A program made the position numbers and the translations under genes. This document shows positions 1-6,934 of a stretch of DNA of 34,721 bases, piece after piece. Below the pieces are notes generated by a model, which did not search any database, was not told where the DNA came from, and worked only from the letters and a program-made list of their open reading frames with translations. The DNA comes from a virus, in IMG/VR virus record IMGVR_UViG_3300015360_000118, positions 1 through 34,721 of that record; one strand, written 5' to 3'. Position 1 is the first letter of the stretch. Every line of letters starts with the position of its first letter.

Positions 1-1
1 G

Positions 2-115
2 CCATTACAAAAGCAGATAGTAGAAATGATTAACGCTTGTAAGAAATGGATTGAGTATAGAGTAGACGAATCGTACACATTAGTCGAAGAAGGAATTCTC
101 CCAATTAGCGCATGA
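2..115 (+). CDS. C-terminal end of an unknown protein (partial)
   Basis: An open frame enters from the left edge and stops with TGA at 113-115, leaving 37 residues with no start codon inside the window. The visible part is charged and ends in ILPISA; I recognise no motif. The next gene, the small terminase subunit, starts 68 bases downstream on the same strand, so this is probably the last part of a gene in or just before the packaging operon. An internal ATG at 26 could also give a very short product, but an open frame running off the edge fits a truncated gene better. Confidence 0.55.
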   Translation, partial: PLQKQIVEMINACKKWIEYRVDESYTLVEEGILPISA

Positions 116-183
116 AAATACTTGGAAATAGTGGATAAGAAAAACCAACCAACCGAGCAAGCGTATGATACAATGTACTTACA

Positions 184-816
184 ATGGCAAGTAAAGCACC
201 GGTTAAAGATAAAAAAGGCAGTAACACCGGTTATGGTAAAAGCGGGCGCAAAGCTATGCTTAAGAACGCCGCCAAAGACCTACTACCCGAGAAGAAAAAG
301 AAGAAATCCCCAAAAGAAAAGCCAACACTTGAGAAAGCAGCATTAAAAGCGCTCATGGACGCCAAACTATCTCCACAAGAGGAGTATTTTTGTGAGTTAT
401 ACGTATCAGACATAGAGTTTTATGGAAATGGTACACAGAGCTATATAGAAGCCTTTGATATTACCGTTGTACTAGGAAAGTCTCGAGGGGAGACGGACGA
501 CAACGAAATGACTCATGCAACCGTAAGGGCTAATGCAAGCAAGCTCTTGACAGACACCAACATATTGAACCGAATACACGAGCTATTAGAGGACGGCGGC
601 TTCAACGATCAACACGCAGACAAAACACTGCAGTTTTTAATGACACAAAAAGCAGACTTGAGAGTAGCGCTTGGAGCTATCGACGCATATAACAAACTTA
701 TGTCTCGTATACAAGACAGACAACACGTATTGCACTCTTTTGCTAATGAAGACGTCTCGGACGATGAACTACAGCGACGAATAGCCGAGAAGCAGAAGTT
801 CTTTAATAAAAAGTAA
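184..816 (+). CDS. terS: Terminase small subunit
   Basis: A 210-residue protein that should recognise phage DNA and load the large terminase subunit for packaging. A lysine-rich N-terminus (about 1-50) precedes a stretch around 62-140 that follows the Terminase_2 family pattern: LSPQEEYFCELYV, then GNGTQSYIEAF, then ATVRANASKLL and a short NILNRIHELL helix. In known members this forms the DNA-binding helix-turn-helix. The insert between TQSYIEAFDI and TVRANA is longer than usual. The ATG at 184 has no Shine-Dalgarno sequence. TerL lies about 1.5 kb downstream rather than adjacent, with four genes between. Family assignment rests on pattern recognition. Confidence 0.85.
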   Translation: MASKAPVKDKKGSNTGYGKSGRKAMLKNAAKDLLPEKKKKKSPKEKPTLEKAALKALMDAKLSPQEEYFCELYVSDIEFYGNGTQSYIEAFDITVVLGKSRGETDDNEMTHATVRANASKLLTDTNILNRIHELLEDGGFNDQHADKTLQFLMTQKADLRVALGAIDAYNKLMSRIQDRQHVLHSFANEDVSDDELQRRIAEKQKFFNKK

Positions 817-830
817 TAATTTAGTCGCCT

Positions 831-1091
831 ATGAAAGACTCAACAGCAAAATACATTGTCCGGACATGGTGGTTGGTGCTTGCCGTAGTTTTACTTGCCC
901 TTGCCGCTGGCTTTTTACGCATAGAAAAGCCGCCGGAGTCCAAGAATTCCCCTTTTTCGGAAGAATGTAAGTTTTACCAGAAGACTCAAGGTGGAGATAT
1001 GGTTATTAGTGAACCAAGCTCTGGAACGTTTCGCTACGAGTTGATTGCTACGAGCGACGGTATCGAGGTTTGGAAGTGTAATGCTTTTTAA
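831..1091 (+). CDS. Small single-pass membrane protein
   Basis: An 86-residue protein with one hydrophobic segment at about 12-30 (WWLVLAVVLLALAAGFL) after a short basic N-terminus, which looks like a signal anchor with the rest outside the cytoplasm. The exposed part holds two cysteines (in EECKFY and WKCNAF) that could pair. No family is recognised. It lies 14 bases after the small terminase gene, and the next start follows directly after its stop in a TAATATG junction, so it is part of the packaging operon. Confidence 0.6.
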   Translation: MKDSTAKYIVRTWWLVLAVVLLALAAGFLRIEKPPESKNSPFSEECKFYQKTQGGDMVISEPSSGTFRYELIATSDGIEVWKCNAF

Positions 1092-1092
1092 T

Positions 1093-1464
1093 ATGAATAA
1101 AGAAACAAGCCCAGACGGTAAGAATATAGAGAAAATCGACCACGGAGACGGGCGCCAGAGTGTCATAGTGCACGTAAATGCCCTTTCTCTTGATAACCCA
1201 GACGCCGAGGACTTGGAAGTAAAGAAGATTATTGAGGAGCAAATCCTTCCAAAGCTTAACGATCGAGTCGTACTTGTTACGGTAGTACACAAAGAAAGCT
1301 TACTTAAGGCTACTGTAAAGACTAAATTTATTAAGGTAAGGCAAGTAGCCGAGGTTCTCATTGCCGGTTTTCCGCAGACTACGCAGGAAAAAAAAGAACC
1401 TAATACCCAAGATTTTATTATTATAGCGGTCGAAGGTGACGACGTCTGTGTAACACAGCTATAG
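1093..1464 (+). CDS. Hypothetical protein
   Basis: A 123-residue soluble protein of unknown function. I chose the ATG at 1093 because it forms the TAATATG stop-start junction used repeatedly in this window; an in-frame ATG at 1081 would overlap the preceding gene. The middle part has regular alternating hydrophobic strands (RVVLVTVVHKES, KTKFIKVRQVAEVLIAG, DFIIIAVEGDDVCVTQL), suggesting a small alpha/beta domain. No motif is recognised. It sits between the small membrane protein and another unknown gene in the terminase operon. Confidence 0.6.
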   Translation: MNKETSPDGKNIEKIDHGDGRQSVIVHVNALSLDNPDAEDLEVKKIIEEQILPKLNDRVVLVTVVHKESLLKATVKTKFIKVRQVAEVLIAGFPQTTQEKKEPNTQDFIIIAVEGDDVCVTQL

Positions 1465-1465
1465 C

Positions 1466-1729
1466 ATGGCAAAACTACTACAGCTCAACATAGAAGCAAT
1501 ACACCGGCTCGTAATCATTGACGATGTACCGGTTATGGTATTTACGAGGGACGAGCTATCAGAGGAGACGCTCCTTCCTTCTGGTAAGTTTGAAATCTTT
1601 TGGTATGTGAACTTTAAAGGTAAGTTTTACGGTGGTATGGAGGTGCTCGCCGATCTAAAAGACATTGAACGCGACGTGGAGATTATGCTTGGTCACGCCA
1701 AGGAGACTTTAAAAAACCTTAATAAGTAG
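1466..1729 (+). CDS. Hypothetical protein
   Basis: An 87-residue protein with no recognisable family. It starts one base after the stop of the preceding gene and ends two bases before the peptide-deformylase-like gene, so it is very probably co-transcribed and coupled with both. Predicted features are N-terminal beta strands (LQLNIEAIHRLVIIDDVPVMVF) and a helical acidic C-terminus (DLKDIERDVEIMLGHAKETLKNL). No Shine-Dalgarno sequence precedes the ATG. Confidence 0.6.
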   Translation: MAKLLQLNIEAIHRLVIIDDVPVMVFTRDELSEETLLPSGKFEIFWYVNFKGKFYGGMEVLADLKDIERDVEIMLGHAKETLKNLNK

Positions 1730-1731
1730 GT

Positions 1732-2370
1732 ATGAAACTCGAAATAAAAAACCACCCCGAAGATAAAGTTGGTATTTACGCCGTCTCCAAGAAGGCAAAG
1801 AGAGCTCATATACCACTGGCTTTTTTAATTACTCAAGTGTGTGACGACGCAGAAAAGGAGTGGGCAGACAAATACGGTATGAAGGCTTGGGCGATTTCTC
1901 ACGCACAACTCACAACGTCCCCAGAGCCCTTACGTATCTTTGTAGTACACCCGACATTGGCAGAAAAGTCACTCAATCCTTTAAACGCTGGCTTTCCTTC
2001 ACGGGCTATCTTTAATGCTCAAATCCTAGAAGCCGAGAAGGAACTTGTAATGTATAAAAAAGTTCGAAAGACGGTATTTAATGGCACAACAGGAAAGCGA
2101 GAGATACACGACAAGGTACCGGAGAAGTGCGCCACGCCCAATATCTTTGAACCCAAGGAAGGTTGTATGAGTTTTGTACACCGGAAACCAAAGAAGGTGC
2201 AGCGAGTCTTCCGTATTACCGTTCGATACTGGTATCCGCGTCGTATACTTGGCTTGTGGGTATTATGGCGCCGGACTGAAAAAGTAGAAGGCTTAAAGTC
2301 GCAGATATTCCAGCACGAAATACAGCACTTCGAAGGGGATAACATATACTTTAAGCACAATGAACGCTAA
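1732..2370 (+). CDS. Peptide-deformylase-like protein
   Basis: A 212-residue protein carrying the hallmarks of peptide deformylase, the metal enzyme that removes the formyl group from new proteins. Motif 2 is EGCMS at 143-147 (family EGCLS, metal ligand Cys145) and motif 3 is HEIQH at 195-199 (family HExDH, ligands His195 and His199, catalytic Glu196). Motif 1 (family GxGLAAxQ) is degenerate: around 52-59 only Gln59 is convincing, followed by LRIFVVHP as in true deformylases. The usual Asp of HExDH is Gln198. All metal ligands and the catalytic Glu remain, so activity is possible, but the degenerate first motif could mean altered specificity. It lies inside the terminase operon and overlaps the TerL start by 11 bases. 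Confidence 0.72.
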   Translation: MKLEIKNHPEDKVGIYAVSKKAKRAHIPLAFLITQVCDDAEKEWADKYGMKAWAISHAQLTTSPEPLRIFVVHPTLAEKSLNPLNAGFPSRAIFNAQILEAEKELVMYKKVRKTVFNGTTGKREIHDKVPEKCATPNIFEPKEGCMSFVHRKPKKVQRVFRITVRYWYPRRILGLWVLWRRTEKVEGLKSQIFQHEIQHFEGDNIYFKHNER

Positions 2371-3847
2371 AAAGCCCGACAACTACGACTTGCAGCTCCT
2401 AGACTACCGCCTAGAGAATGAAAAGTACCGATACTACGAACCTTCTGGAGTAGGAGAGGACTTTCTCAATGCGTTTGGAAGCAATGACTACTTTATACTC
2501 TTTCTTTCGGCGGCTAATGGAGTGGGCAAAACAGCACTGGCTACCAACATAATCGCAAATATATGCTTTTCTGGTAATAATCCTTGGTTCCGTGGTGGAT
2601 TGTTCGAGAAATGGCAGTATCTAAAGAAGGGACGTATTGTTACAGAATCAGACTTGGTAGAAAAGAACGTGGTAAACGAGCTTAAACAATGGCTCCCCCG
2701 CGGTCGCTACCAGACTAAAAAAGCTGGTAAGCACTTCGAATCCCGTTGGTTTACTGATACCGGCTTCGATTGGGACATTATGACCTATGACCAAGACCCT
2801 ATGCAGTTTGAAGGAATAACGCTCGGTTGGGCTTGGTTTGACGAGCCACCACCAGACCTATTGTTGAAAGCTACAATCTCTCGTATGCGTAAAGGTGGTA
2901 TCATTATTATCACAGCTACACCTATTTCCGGTTCAGCTCACTTGTACGATATGTTCGCCAATGGAGAAATGGAAGTGCAAGTACAGCTTCGAGAAGGAGA
3001 AGACCCTGTAACTGTAAAGCGCCGTGTTTACCACCTTACAGCGGACGTTGAAAGCGTTTGTAAGGAGCATGGTATCCGTGGACACTTGGAGCACCAACAT
3101 ATTGCTCAAATGGTCGCGGAGTATCCGGAAGACGAACGACAAGCTCGTGTATACGGTAAGTTTCAACACCTTGTAGGACTTGTGTTTAAAAAATGGAATA
3201 AACAAGTACACGTAATAGAACCGTTTGCGCTCGACCCGCGCGAGTGGTGCGTTTATCATTCCCTTGACCCGCACCCACGTAACCCAGACGCAGGTATTTG
3301 GCTGGCAGTAAATAGGCAAGGAACCAAGATAGTAGTTGATGAGTATTACAAAAACCCAGACACGGTGCAGGACTTGGGATATGATTTAAAGAAGAAGCAC
3401 TCTCTCTACCGTATGGAAACGCCGTATACCATTGACCCTAGTGCAACGATCGTCGACCAACATACAGAACGTTGTTTGGCTACTATGCTGGAGGACGAAG
3501 GACTTAATTACATTTCAGCGTCAAAGTCTCGAGCGGTAGCAGATAAGCGTATTGAGAACGCCTTGGACTACCGAGAAGTAAACGGACAAATGATAAAGCC
3601 GCCTGAATTGTACGTATTTTCTACTTGTCAGCGTTTCATTTACGAAGTGGAGCACTGGCGCTGGCAAGAGTGGAAGGGCAAAACCAGCTTTGATAAAAAC
3701 CGTAAGGAACAAAAGGTTGATAAAGACGACCACACTATTGAGTGTCTTGGACGTATTTTGTTTCAAGAGCCACAGTTTAGAGAAATGGTTACGCGACAAG
3801 TGCAAAGTGGAGTACAAAAAATGTCTAGCGATGACCCTTACTTTTAA
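2360..3847 (+). CDS. terL: Terminase large subunit (packaging ATPase and nuclease)
   Basis: A 495-residue protein that should drive DNA into the prohead and cut it. The N-terminal ATPase shows a Walker A loop SAANGVGKT at 50-58, a Walker B strand GWAWFDE ending at 162 and a TATPIS coupling motif at 185-190. The C-terminal RNase-H-like nuclease shows SLDPHPRNPDAG (Asp303), VVDEYY around 326-330 and a late KDDHTIECLGRIL that probably supplies the last acidic residue. The length is normal for the family. Its start overlaps the end of the deformylase-like gene. It is followed by a zinc-ribbon gene and then the 1 kb structured non-coding region. Confidence 0.95.
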   Translation: MNAKKPDNYDLQLLDYRLENEKYRYYEPSGVGEDFLNAFGSNDYFILFLSAANGVGKTALATNIIANICFSGNNPWFRGGLFEKWQYLKKGRIVTESDLVEKNVVNELKQWLPRGRYQTKKAGKHFESRWFTDTGFDWDIMTYDQDPMQFEGITLGWAWFDEPPPDLLLKATISRMRKGGIIIITATPISGSAHLYDMFANGEMEVQVQLREGEDPVTVKRRVYHLTADVESVCKEHGIRGHLEHQHIAQMVAEYPEDERQARVYGKFQHLVGLVFKKWNKQVHVIEPFALDPREWCVYHSLDPHPRNPDAGIWLAVNRQGTKIVVDEYYKNPDTVQDLGYDLKKKHSLYRMETPYTIDPSATIVDQHTERCLATMLEDEGLNYISASKSRAVADKRIENALDYREVNGQMIKPPELYVFSTCQRFIYEVEHWRWQEWKGKTSFDKNRKEQKVDKDDHTIECLGRILFQEPQFREMVTRQVQSGVQKMSSDDPYF

Positions 3848-3848
3848 T

Positions 3849-3989
3849 ATGGAACCGGACTTAATCATTTGTGAAGGTTGTGGTCGGAGTATTGAATTAC
3901 ACGAAGACTTCCAAGAATCAGATATGGGGATAAGCTTGTGTATAGAGTGTTGCCCAGACGGTATACCGAAAGACGACTGGCTGTTATAA
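3849..3989 (+). CDS. Small zinc-ribbon protein
   Basis: A 46-residue protein starting in a TAATATG junction right after TerL. It has CEGC at 8-11 and CIECC at 31-35, a two-knuckle pattern typical of a treble-clef or zinc-ribbon fold, joined by an acidic linker. The partner is unknown; such small zinc proteins in phages can bind nucleic acid or a host protein. Its last codons overlap an extended -10 promoter (TGTTATAAT at 3982-3990), so the 3' end of the gene serves as promoter for the structured region downstream. Confidence 0.65.
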   Translation: MEPDLIICEGCGRSIELHEDFQESDMGISLCIECCPDGIPKDDWLL

Positions 3990-3990
3990 T
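3982..3990 (+). promoter_or_regulatory. Extended -10 promoter candidate
   Basis: TGT followed by TATAAT at 3985-3990, overlapping the end of the zinc-ribbon gene. No convincing -35 hexamer is seen at the right distance, as is usual for extended -10 promoters. Initiation near 3997 would place the hairpin GTCGG/CCGAC (3997-4015) at the very 5' end of the RNA. The same 9-mer occurs at 4898 and 27630. Confidence 0.45.
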
Positions 3991-4059
3991 ATCCACGTCG
4001 GACTAGAGCACCGACAATTGCTAGGCAAAAGGGAATTGACCCCCTTTTCTTTCTTACTT

Positions 4060-4091: not shown

Positions 4092-4127
4092 TATATAAGC
4101 CGCTGGACTCCATAAAAGGTGACAATG

Positions 4128-4136
4128 TGGTATTAT
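4128..4136 (+). promoter_or_regulatory. Extended -10 promoter candidate for a small RNA
   Basis: TGG followed by TATTAT at 4131-4136, with a purine start region at about 4141-4143. No clear -35 is seen. A short structured stretch ending in an intrinsic terminator follows within 75 bases, which fits a free-standing small RNA gene. Confidence 0.4.
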
Positions 4137-4139
4137 AGA

Positions 4140-4210
4140 CATGGAGCCATTCTTGCCTTAAGCGGTAAGGAAACCATGGAAAGAGCACCACCAGCCGGGG
4201 TGCTCTTTTT
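4140..4210 (+). ncRNA. Candidate small RNA (about 70 nt) with its own terminator
   Basis: CATGG (4140-4144) pairs with CCATG (4174-4178) and encloses a hairpin CCTTA (4156-4160)/TAAGG (4166-4170). The terminator hairpin follows at once. An extended -10 lies just upstream. There is no open frame of note inside. The promoter-structure-terminator layout supports a small non-coding RNA gene; no known family is recognised and the function is unknown. Confidence 0.5.
4180..4210 (+). terminator. Rho-independent terminator
   Basis: AAAGAGCACC (4180-4189) pairs with GGTGCTCTTT (4199-4208) around a 9-base loop and runs into a T tract ending at 4210. This is a textbook intrinsic terminator, placed 40 bases downstream of the small-RNA start region. 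Confidence 0.8.
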
Positions 4211-4240
4211 GTTCTTAACCTTATCTTCATACGCTTTGTT

Positions 4241-4251: not shown

Positions 4252-4458
4252 CTAGGACTGTAACAAATATCCACAGTCTACGGCTATACAGATAGAGCCT
4301 TAAACATGCTATTATGTTCGGGTATGGTTTTGAAACATCAACAATTGAATACTTGCGCAGCTAACCCAACCTCGGAAGACCATACAATTTTCCTTGGGTT
4401 GGCGTCGCTAGTATTGAACAAAAACGTTGTAAGGGCACTCTTTTTGAGTGTCTTTTTT
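4252..4458 (+). ncRNA. Candidate structured RNA (about 205 nt) ending in a terminator
   Basis: A chain of helices: GACTGT/ACAGTC (4256-4278), GGCTAT with ATAGAGCC (4282-4299, one bulge), AACAT/ATGTT (4303-4318), then a long imperfect hairpin in which AATACT (4348-4353) pairs with AGTATT (4410-4415), GCG with CGC, and GCTAACCCAA (4360-4369) with TTGGGTTGGC (4394-4403). An intrinsic terminator closes it at 4434-4458. A 72-codon open frame crosses it but has no start context and shows no family, so RNA is the better reading. The sequence TGCTATTAT at 4307-4315 also resembles an extended -10. Family unknown. Confidence 0.55.
4434..4458 (+). terminator. Rho-independent terminator
   Basis: GGCACTC (4434-4440) pairs with GAGTGTC (4446-4452, one G-U pair) around a TTTTT loop and is followed by six T residues at 4453-4458. 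It ends the second structured RNA. Confidence 0.8.
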
Positions 4459-4466
4459 CGTGTCAC

Positions 4467-4853
4467 ATTGCAACTCGGGCTTCTTGCAATTAAAAAACCT
4501 AGTCCGTTTCCAAATAGTAATTAGTTTTGTGTAGGAACCATAACGACTCGGGAGATCGTTGCTCTCAATACCGGTCATTATTGAGTCCTACGCAAAGCTC
4601 ATTACACAAGCTCTTGTTCAGATACATATGCGAAAGCAGGGAAAACGAGTGTCCGACTTCTCGCCCTGCCGTTGAATATGTACCGGAACAAGGGAACTCT
4701 AAAGATAAATAAAAAGTAAGTTTCGCGTCGTTTTGTTTCTAAGACAATAGCATTAAAGAAACTGGAAGGGGTTTATCTTTGTAGAGTACTGACACCAACT
4801 AAATAACCGCGCAGCAATAGCCCTTCAAGGGTAGAAGTCGGGCTGTACCTTAT
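4467..4853 (+). ncRNA. Candidate large ornate RNA with a three-way junction
   Basis: Nearly continuous helices. ATTGCAA/TTGCAAT forms 4467-4490. A three-way junction is closed by 11 bp (4526-4536 with 4586-4596) and holds arms AACGA/TCGTT (4542-4560) and CTCAATA/TATTGAG (4564-4585). A rod stacks CTCTTGTTC/GAACAAGGG (4611-4619 with 4686-4694), ACATAT/ATATGT, GCAGGG/CCCTGC and CGAG/CTCG. A second rod pairs CTCT-AAAGATAAA (4697-4709) with TTTATCTTT (4772-4780) plus AGAG, and encloses AGTTTC/GAAACT. A last part has CAGC/GCTG (4812-4845) around CCCT/AGGG. Short open frames here show no protein family. The style resembles large phage RNAs such as GOLLD and ROOL, but membership is not shown. Confidence 0.6.
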
Positions 4854-4897
4854 TAACAGAAAAAGGGTTTACAGTTTGTATTAAGAGTGCTGCCTTG

Positions 4898-4906
4898 TGT
4901 TATAAT
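4898..4906 (+). promoter_or_regulatory. Extended -10 promoter for the morphogenesis operon
   Basis: TGT followed by TATAAT at 4901-4906. A TTGTAT at 4876-4881 would be a -35 with a 19-bp spacer, longer than ideal. It lies 85 bases before the portal start and after the structured RNA block, so it probably drives portal and the virion genes. Confidence 0.5.
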
Positions 4907-4990
4907 TTTAGATGAAGAAACCAAAAGTAAGAAAGAGTCGCCAACAATTCCTTCGCTCAAAGGAAACATTACTGGCGATATTTTTTATAA

Positions 4991-6934
4991 ATGGCTACTG
5001 CTACAACTAAAAAGAAGTCCGACAAGTACGAAGTTCCAGAAGAAATTATGGAGCTTGAAGACGACTCTGTAGAAGAAAAGACAGAACGTCCGGACTTTAC
5101 TTCTCTTATAAAGCAATCTGCTTCCGAGTGGGAGCAAGGTTGGTGGTTTATGAAGCCAAAGTGGGACGAGTGGGCACTCCGACTCAAACTATACAACAAC
5201 CAAAAGCGCGACAAAGAAAGTGTAGGTGATACTACGCTATTTTCTGTATTTCAAACGATACTTGCGGCGCTTTACGACGACCGACTCGCTGCTACTTTTT
5301 CTCCTCGAGAGATTGGAGACGACGAAATTGCCGAAAACCTCGACTTGGTAGCTGATTATGACTACGATTTAATGGAAAAGGACATTATCGACTACGAGTG
5401 GGACTTTGAAGCTGCCTTTTTTGGTCGTGGCTTACTTTGTGTCATGGACTTTGACGAAAGTACCCTTACGCCTTCTCCGTATGTATGGAACAGAATGGTG
5501 ACAGTACGTGACCCAGAAGCCGCAAGTGTAAACGGCGATCGTGCTGGACGGGGAGCTTCGCGCTTTCTTTACCGTGAAATCCGAATGACCAAAGAACAGC
5601 TTGCAAACAATGACCAATATTTCGAATACGAAAGCCTAAAAGGTGCTGGAAACAAGAATGATACCAAGAGCCCACTTGACCAATACATGCGGGACACTGC
5701 CGACGCCGCGGGACTAGGAGACGTGCAAAAGTTCGCTAATATCGACGGTGATAACGCAAGTCTTCGACTACGAGAAGGTTTTACCCGCTGGAACGGCAAG
5801 CTTTGCTTCGTTACTATTGGAGACAATGGGAAAAAAGTTATCCGGTACCAAGAACTGGAGCGAAACACCATACCAATTGTAGACCGTGTACTATTTCCGA
5901 TTCCAAACTCTTTTGACTCTGTTTCTGTTCCGGACTTGGTGGAAGACAAGCAACGAGCTAGAGCGGTAGCGCTTAATCTTTCTCTTAAGGGAGTAAAAGC
6001 CAACCTACACCCAATGTACTTATTTGATAAGAACAAAATTGACGAGCGACAAGACTTTAATTTTGCTTTTAACAAGTTCATTCCAGTGCAAGGAAATCCA
6101 GCCGGTGCCGTAGTTCCAATGACTAAAGACTATATTAAACAAGACGTAAGCTTTATTATGGAGACGCTATCAGCAAGCGCAGAACGAGCTACAGGTACAC
6201 CAGACATTAAACAAGGCGCTAACCCAGACGGAAAGACCACAGCTACTCGAGACACACTTGTAGCACAAGGCTCGGACAGTCGTTATGGACTCGCTGCCCG
6301 TATTTTTGGTTGGAGCGAGCGACGATTCTGGCAAGAGTACTATAACCACCTTAAAGAGAACATGGACGATGGTATACACGAGAAAATGGTACGTGTCGTA
6401 GGCGCCCTTGGTGCTGCTTGGCGACCGTTTAAGAAATCCGACCTTATAGTACCAGCCGAACACGCAGACCCTAATATTAAAATTGAAAGTAAAGCAGTTT
6501 CAGATACAAGGCGCTTTAACGAAGCTAAACTGTTTCGAGACTACCTTACCCTTGCAGCAACCGACCCAACTGCTCAAATACGTTCTGGTATGCGGTATTA
6601 CGGCAAGCTTATTGGTATGAAGCAAGACTTGGTAGAGCAAATCTACCCACCTACAATAGACGAACTTCGTGCCGAGGAGGAAAATATGCTCATTTATGAA
6701 GGAACCAAGGCTATTGTACTTCCAGACGACGATCATTATTTACACCTTCAAATCCACAACAAGCTTCCGGACTCTCCAACAAAGACCGCTCACCTAAACG
6801 CACACAAACGGGCGCTTATTCTCCAAAAAACAAATCCCGAAATGGTACCGCTTCCTACTGCTCAAGGTGCGGTGCCGGTTGATAACCTAACAGCGCCAGC
6901 GCAAGAAGGAGGACGTAAGCTGCCAGTCTTGTAA
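4991..6934 (+). CDS. Portal protein (P22/T7-like)
   Basis: A 647-residue protein that should form the dodecameric ring at the capsid vertex through which DNA enters and leaves. After an acidic N-terminus (1-45) come portal-like helices around 83-105 (FSVFQTILAALYDDR) and 135-150 (YEWDFEAAFFGRGLL), a beta-rich wing, and from about residue 399 RATGTPDIKQG leading into long stem and crown helices (FGWSERRFWQEYYNHL). Length and position after TerL and before the scaffold fit the short-tailed-phage portal family. The ATG has no Shine-Dalgarno sequence, and a TTTTTT run lies just upstream. The family is inferred from pattern and gene order. Confidence 0.88.
   Translation: MATATTKKKSDKYEVPEEIMELEDDSVEEKTERPDFTSLIKQSASEWEQGWWFMKPKWDEWALRLKLYNNQKRDKESVGDTTLFSVFQTILAALYDDRLAATFSPREIGDDEIAENLDLVADYDYDLMEKDIIDYEWDFEAAFFGRGLLCVMDFDESTLTPSPYVWNRMVTVRDPEAASVNGDRAGRGASRFLYREIRMTKEQLANNDQYFEYESLKGAGNKNDTKSPLDQYMRDTADAAGLGDVQKFANIDGDNASLRLREGFTRWNGKLCFVTIGDNGKKVIRYQELERNTIPIVDRVLFPIPNSFDSVSVPDLVEDKQRARAVALNLSLKGVKANLHPMYLFDKNKIDERQDFNFAFNKFIPVQGNPAGAVVPMTKDYIKQDVSFIMETLSASAERATGTPDIKQGANPDGKTTATRDTLVAQGSDSRYGLAARIFGWSERRFWQEYYNHLKENMDDGIHEKMVRVVGALGAAWRPFKKSDLIVPAEHADPNIKIESKAVSDTRRFNEAKLFRDYLTLAATDPTAQIRSGMRYYGKLIGMKQDLVEQIYPPTIDELRAEEENMLIYEGTKAIVLPDDDHYLHLQIHNKLPDSPTKTAHLNAHKRALILQKTNPEMVPLPTAQGAVPVDNLTAPAQEGGRKLPVL

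Follow-up and report, generated by a model that had tools for sequence, protein, structure and literature searches.

The window analysed here (W) is a 34.7-kb record of an uncultured phage (IMGVR_UViG_3300015360_000118, all 34,721 nucleotides), in which a non-coding gap of ~1.1 kb without recognisable gene separates the large terminase gene from the portal gene. Two adjacent rods of nested helices in this gap, rods A and B, make up roughly one third of an RNA of ~525 nt (~4320-4845) with three covarying long-range or pseudoknot pairings. This RNA represents a new RNA family, spread among unrelated phages and mobile elements of Patescibacteria. The novelty applies to the family and not to a demonstrated mechanism. 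The full RNA comprises, in order, a promoter-proximal leader with its terminator, an H-type pseudoknot, a three-way junction, rod A, rod B and a 3' strand. The folding z-score is -5.3 for the whole 4311-4910 stretch and -4.9 for 4460-4850. L-numbers are used for the loci of relatives, and the RNA features, promoters and terminators of W given below are all on the + strand.

Rod A - the element that defines the family

Rod A (4606-4699, with its helices at 4611-4694) is the element by which members of the family are recognised (models R2 and R3), and it covers 30 loci. A sequence pattern for rod A gave copies in L079 and L074, phage contigs that are otherwise unrelated, and a gapped form of it added L198 and, from the genomes, the Parcubacteria contig L200. 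The genome scan with the rod A pattern gave seven matches, six of which were rejected as having a fold unlike that of rod A, and only L200 folds properly. A covariance model built on ten copies (R2) found L212, L216 and L217 in three more Patescibacteria genomes; rod A is present in 4 of 383 Patescibacteria-class genomes, that of L200 included. A further 17 viral loci came from two looser patterns whose matches were filtered with R2.

The test by covariation is strongly positive for rod A. Over the 30 copies 95.3% of cells are paired, against 69.6% after shuffling, and there are compensatory changes at 19 of the 26 pairs. The covariation score is 0.690, compared with 0.201 for shuffled sequences (0/500 reaching the observed value) and at most 0.115 for slid pairings. 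As the set was partly collected by pattern, the invariance of ATGCGAAAG and GG(A)AAAA is partly by construction, and the covariation is unaffected by this. The RNA structure is also shown to be strand-specific: the rod A covariance model scores 97 bits on the + strand of W and 37 bits on the - strand, and G.U pairs on the + strand account for 57 of the 742 paired cells.

With regard to W itself, a first-pass annotation made from the letters alone had placed the two rods at 4611-4694 (rod A) and 4697-4786 (rod B), two bases apart (4695-4696), and had held that this closeness suggested coaxial stacking and that such continuity was beyond chance. Both rods and the two-base gap are indeed there, and the + strand of 4611-4786 has a minimum free energy (MFE) of -55.7 kcal/mol, against -36.06 +/- 3.82 kcal/mol for dinucleotide shuffles (z -5.14), with none of 200 shuffles as low as the native sequence. 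The annotation had proposed a folding test of this kind and one of covariation, and the structure passes both. The - strand gives a z-score of -4.41. Taken separately, rod A has a z-score of -5.4 (0/500 shuffles) and rod B one of -2.6 (5/500 shuffles). Four helices of 9, 6, 6 and 4 bp had been described for rod A; those of 9 bp (4611-4619/4686-4694), 6 bp (GCAGGG/CCCTGC) and 4 bp stand, and the second is better given as about 6-7 bp. Comparison of the copies identifies the innermost helix as CGAG/CTCG with an AAAA bulge. Rod B is as described, with CTCTAAAGATAAA paired to TTTATCTTT-GT-AGAG, including the 2-nt bulge, around AGTTTC/GAAACT. The suggested coaxial stacking is not a family feature, because rod B is a lineage-specific addition, and in many family members the 3' element follows rod A after only 28-60 nt.

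Pairing of the rod A loop with the 3' element

The 3' element, which has the family form GGKAAAAGnnGG, lies at 4820-4841 in W, where it consists of a small hairpin (4820-4832) followed by AAGTCGG (4835-4841), and it is found 28-244 nt 3' of rod A in the members that have rod A. The apical loop of rod A (CCGACTT, 4653-4659) is complementary to the strand after GGKAAAAG, CCGACTT pairing with AAGTCGG in W. The equivalent pairs elsewhere are ACCCCT/AGGGGT in L256, ACCGCT/AGCGGT in L259, GTGACT/AGTCAC in L216 and CAACCT/AGGTTG in L079, with 14 bp in L074. The comparison took in 19 loci, among which the loop hexamer has 17 different sequences, and 110 of the 114 cells are paired, compared with a mean of 71.7 and a maximum of 89 when partners were shuffled (20,000 trials). 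MAFFT failed on the short hexamers, and the count was made by script on hand-anchored pairs; an unanchored permutation test agrees, the longest match to a member's own loop being 6.7 nt, against a mean of 5.1 and a maximum of 5.95 in permuted sets (0/20000). L249 and L265 have long rod A loops, and the loop pairing there is uncertain. As shown by covariation, the predicted long-range contact that is conserved in the family is that of the rod A loop with the 3' element.

The second module and the minimal core

The second module is closed by a helix of GTGTCA (4460-4465) with TGACAC (4790-4795). On reading the alignment by eye this becomes GTAAC/GTTAT in L004 and GTAGC/GCTAC in L005-L007. Close to its 5' side is an H-type pseudoknot, PK2 (4468-4505), with TTGCAA pairing at 4468-4473/4484-4489 and GGGCT (4477-4481) pairing with AGTCC (4501-4505). 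The second helix of PK2 was checked in 14 loci, and has changed sequence with at least one G.U pair in each. It pairs GGGC-type loops with GTCC- or GCTC-type strands, the latter typically 3' of a TAAAAC linker. The matches given by a search with a loose PK2 pattern were mostly due to chance.

PK2 is followed by a three-way junction (4529-4593) made of GTGTAGG/CCTACGC and two hairpins, the closing helix being present in the MFE fold. The two-hairpin form was read by eye, and L001-L004 and L028 have the same shape with other sequences. Rod B has helices at 4697-4709/4772-4786 and 4719-4724/4758-4763. Its alignment by MAFFT was unsuccessful and it was compared by folding. In L001, L002, L004, L005 and L007 rod B refolds, with different sequence, into two nested helices.

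Two loci differ in their make-up. L028 (3978-4300) has the leader and three-way junction without rod A, which indicates that the modules are separable. In L003 (4390-5110) most of the second module, 3' of the leader, has given way to sequence resembling an HNH-type gene, and the rod A model has no match there.

In the smallest members (L256, L200, L079 and L249) no more than 28-55 nt lie between rod A and the 3' element, and the core of the RNA is therefore PK2, rod A and the 3' element, in ~200 nt. This minimal core has a folding z-score of -3.3. The three-way junction and rod B are extras of W and its lineage.

The leader RNA and associated promoters and terminators

The leader (RNA1, 4319-4460) consists of a hairpin (4348-4415), a pseudoknot between the 5' end and the apical loop of that hairpin, and then an intrinsic terminator (4431-4460) with a GGCACTC/GAGTGTC stem and T6. 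Its folding z-score is -4.3. In the leader alignment 97.3% of cells are paired, with changes on both sides in 9 of 23 pairs and a covariation score of 0.410, against 0.179 for shuffled sequences (0/500). The 5' strand, GTATGGTTTT (4322-4331), pairs with AAGACCATAC in the hairpin loop (4376-4385), and this pairing is kept at 7-10 bp in all members of the W lineage with differing sequences, for example GTATGACAGC/GCTGTCATAC in L002, GTATGCAAAC/GTTTGCATAC in L003 and GAATGAAAAC/GTTTTCATTC in L004. The stem of the terminator varies in sequence in L001-L007, with stem and T-run retained. The leader is conserved in layout and not in sequence. The leader covariance model (R1) has matches in 10 loci, W among them, and did not reach outside the TerL lineage. 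Another 11 unrelated members have an analogous 5'-strand pairing of 7-14 bp upstream of rod A, mostly before a T-run; these cases outside the W lineage were found by eye and are less certain, an automatic search recovering only some of them.

A putative extended -10 promoter, P1 (TGCTATTAT, 4307-4315), is a TGnTAnnnT-like site with an equivalent position in L001-L007, and the 5' pairing strand begins a few nt downstream of it. A consensus scanner did not call P1. A second putative extended -10 promoter, P2 (4898-4906), for the portal gene, is 56-57 nt 3' of the 3' element in W, L001, L002, L004 and L005. Directly ahead of the portal ATG is a terminator-like hairpin, GTCGCCA/TGGCGAT with a T run (4937-4986), which reads GTCGTC/GACGAT in L004-L007. 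Upstream of the main RNA there is another small promoter-like site with a terminated RNA (W 4110-4212), with a CATGG/CCATG pairing before the terminator, and this is possibly a second leader like that of the main RNA.

Genomic context and distribution

In W the RNA is between the large terminase gene (TerL, 2360-3847, with PHROG matches) and an SU10-type portal gene (4991-6934). Scanning IMG/VR with the portal gave the relatives L001-L010. Of these, L001, L002 and L004-L007 retain the stretch between ~4310 and the start of the portal gene, even though their DNA is no more than ~65-79% identical. In the annotated phage collection neither the portal protein nor the gap DNA of W had a match, and major capsid protein and TerL queries gave distant matches only; a genome scan using the portal alignment gave no relative. 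A search of sister phages of the W lineage, fragments among them, did not find the RNA, and its absence there indicates that it is gained or lost as a unit.

Carriers include phages with different large terminases (phrog_2, phrog_38, phrog_979 and the W type). The RNA is upstream of terminase genes in L268, L232, L229 and L281, the distance to the terminase in these loci and in W (TerL/portal) being ~0.2-2.5 kb. In the four Patescibacteria chromosomes it is ahead of a large serine recombinase gene, and in three of these chromosomes the 3' end of that gene overlaps one for a tRNA. In L218, L220 and L221 the large serine recombinase genes of Patescibacteria elements end within tRNA genes (Asn, Met and Trp), which suggests tRNA-targeted integration. 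The proteins of the integrative elements include no family that explains the RNA.

The downstream genes vary, including those for portal, helix-turn-helix protein, ParB-methylase, RNase H-like protein, HNH protein and recombinase, with no family common to the RNA loci. A -10-like site is found 39-57 nt 3' of the 3' element in five lineages (W with its lineage, L268, L232, L265 and L259), and the next gene need not then carry the RNA. Between 600 nt upstream and 300 nt downstream of rod A, the DnaA-box-like sequence TTATCCACA has ~13 times the density seen in the rest of the loci, a background that includes coding DNA, so that the enrichment may reflect intergenic sequence generally. W has two intergenic copies of TTATCCACA (26888 and 28988), each adjoining GGCAAGCGGGCAAGCG and promoter-like sequence.

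Several other features of these loci were observed. L074, L256, L249 and L244 each encode, beside the RNA, a small protein whose C-terminus resembles SKxFSKxFWGxLKIK, as recognised by eye. In L214 (9437-11164), from the phage with the L074 copy, a GroEL-like chaperonin is encoded upstream of the terminase. In L001 (2392-3357) TerL is interrupted in frame at Cys234 by an intein that has a LAGLIDADG domain, the whole being one reading frame of 832 aa. Several genes in W 1-4000 have no recognisable Shine-Dalgarno sequence at the start.

Relationship to known RNAs

No Rfam 15 family matches the RNA in W at gathering score, and the other members tested have no relevant match at E-values up to 0.1-1. 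In a search to E<=10 a few Rfam entries fall in the W gap at E 1.7-4.4, all unrelated and far under their cut-offs. No description of the RNA was found in the literature covered, which took in only a minority of subscription papers.

The nearest kind is that of GOLLD and ROOL, which are RNAs of phages and integrated elements, hundreds of nt long with multiple pseudoknots (PMC12286853). The W-family RNA is likewise encoded by phages and integrated elements, large and multiply pseudoknotted. However it differs from GOLLD and ROOL in its helices and in its core of ~200 nt in the smallest members, and no member tested has an Rfam match, whether to these two or to OLE. RNA-only multimers are characteristic of GOLLD, ROOL and OLE, and GOLLD and ROOL are often near phage tRNA islands. 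No tRNA is present in W, seven relatives and the L079 and L074 loci.

The phi29 pRNA is also a small phage RNA, and in W our RNA is encoded beside packaging genes; however it has another fold and no Rfam match, and the family is not always near a terminase. The lambda late leader (PR'/tR') and the HK022 put RNA are structured cis RNAs, with promoter, short leader and terminator at the early/late boundary. The W-family RNA resembles them in being structured and in having a promoter-like site ahead of a short leader and its terminator, but has a large conserved core 3' of the terminator and, in several lineages, an extra promoter-like site after the core. TIGR arrays and Tas occur in phages and parasitic bacteria (PMC12045711), and share with our RNA that they involve non-coding RNA of phages and CPR-type bacteria; however no tandem array was seen in the RNA-family sequences read, and no Tas was recognised among the neighbours scanned.

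Group I and II introns have no Rfam match in W, where the RNA is between intact genes. With regard to type III toxin-antitoxin RNA (ToxI), no tandem repeat was seen by eye in the alignment and the portal gene is next, no dedicated search for repeats or toxins having been made. Of attenuator features, W has the promoter-like site, loop pairing and terminator; no mutually exclusive antiterminator was identified in it.

Possible functions

We favour, with slightly less than even confidence, a trans-acting structured non-coding RNA whose dose the leader terminator would set. Transcription would start at P1, and over the first ~140 nt the 5' end would pair with the hairpin loop before the intrinsic terminator, giving a short leader RNA. 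Read-through of the terminator would give the full RNA of ~525 nt, which the covariation indicates to be closed on itself by the multibranch helix, PK2 and the pairing of the rod A loop with the 3' strand. The conserved unpaired A-rich loops (GCGAAA/CRUCUR, the AAAA bulge, UAAAAC and GGUAAAAG) are probably a partner-binding surface. The RNA gene appears to be swapped among phages and integrative elements of Patescibacteria and to act in trans, and the gene context suggests use near the switch to packaging or late functions, or in mobilisation. Action in trans is proposed because the downstream genes differ and a -10-like site follows the RNA in five lineages. There are several points that weigh against it. 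The promoters and terminators were read from consensus sequences, it is unusual for an RNA gene to have a terminator before its core, and no partner protein or fixed neighbour was found. An open reading frame follows on the same strand in 27 loci, mostly within 300 nt, and in ~11 loci it begins no more than 55 nt away and no -10-like site intervenes, which is what a leader would show.

The main rival is that the RNA is a cis-acting leader of the following operon, a pseudoknotted attenuator or an antitermination or riboswitch-like element that would control whether polymerase, or the ribosome, gets as far as the portal, terminase or recombinase genes, in a layout comparable to the lambda late promoter with its early terminator. 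It is a serious possibility, if on the whole a doubtful one. The promoter-like site, the 5'-end/loop pairing and the terminator do come first, the codirectional downstream genes are often within 55 nt of the 3' element, the conserved unpaired bases look aptamer-like, and P2 of W likewise has a terminator-like hairpin ahead of the portal ATG. However a promoter-like site after the RNA in five lineages would bypass it, the downstream genes have nothing in common, and the conserved core is 3' and not 5' of the leader terminator. A packaging RNA like phi29 pRNA, binding the portal/terminase motor and required for DNA packaging, is suggested by the position between TerL and portal in W and upstream of TerL in L268, L232, L229 and L281, but is improbable, as the TerL of L214 is 4.8 kb off on the opposite strand, the chromosomal copies adjoin recombinases with no terminase recognised, and there is no Rfam match and hence none to the pRNA family.

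It could also be argued that the element acts as DNA, being an origin, a packaging site or an attachment site, and that its inverted repeats merely resemble RNA structure, given the density of TTATCCACA around rod A and the serine recombinases beside the chromosomal copies. We consider this very improbable: the pairing is strand-specific, with G.U pairs kept and the - strand scoring much lower, the loop-loop pseudoknot pairings give no simple DNA cruciform, and the position varies relative to recombinase and terminase. Chance or a repeat artefact is, in our view, excluded by the covariation. No support was found for it beyond the partial fixing of ATGCGAAAG and GGAAAA by pattern collection, while the z-score is -5.1, the covariation tests gave 0/500 and 0/20000, and L212, L216 and L217 were found by covariance model and not by pattern.

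In its fullest form the trans-acting proposal is of a new RNA class, with a pseudoknotted core that would work in packaging, late takeover or an RNA-only assembly, a dose set by the leader through the pairing of its own 5' end into a hairpin loop, and exchange between lytic phages and integrative elements of Patescibacteria. This is tentative, and unlikely to hold in every part. Covariation this strong without a known family is uncommon among large structured RNAs, and the known phage examples, GOLLD and ROOL, are still without a function. The compact form of ~200 nt, the ~30 diverse sequences and the link to Patescibacteria, whose phages are little studied, make the structure and function of this family directly testable.
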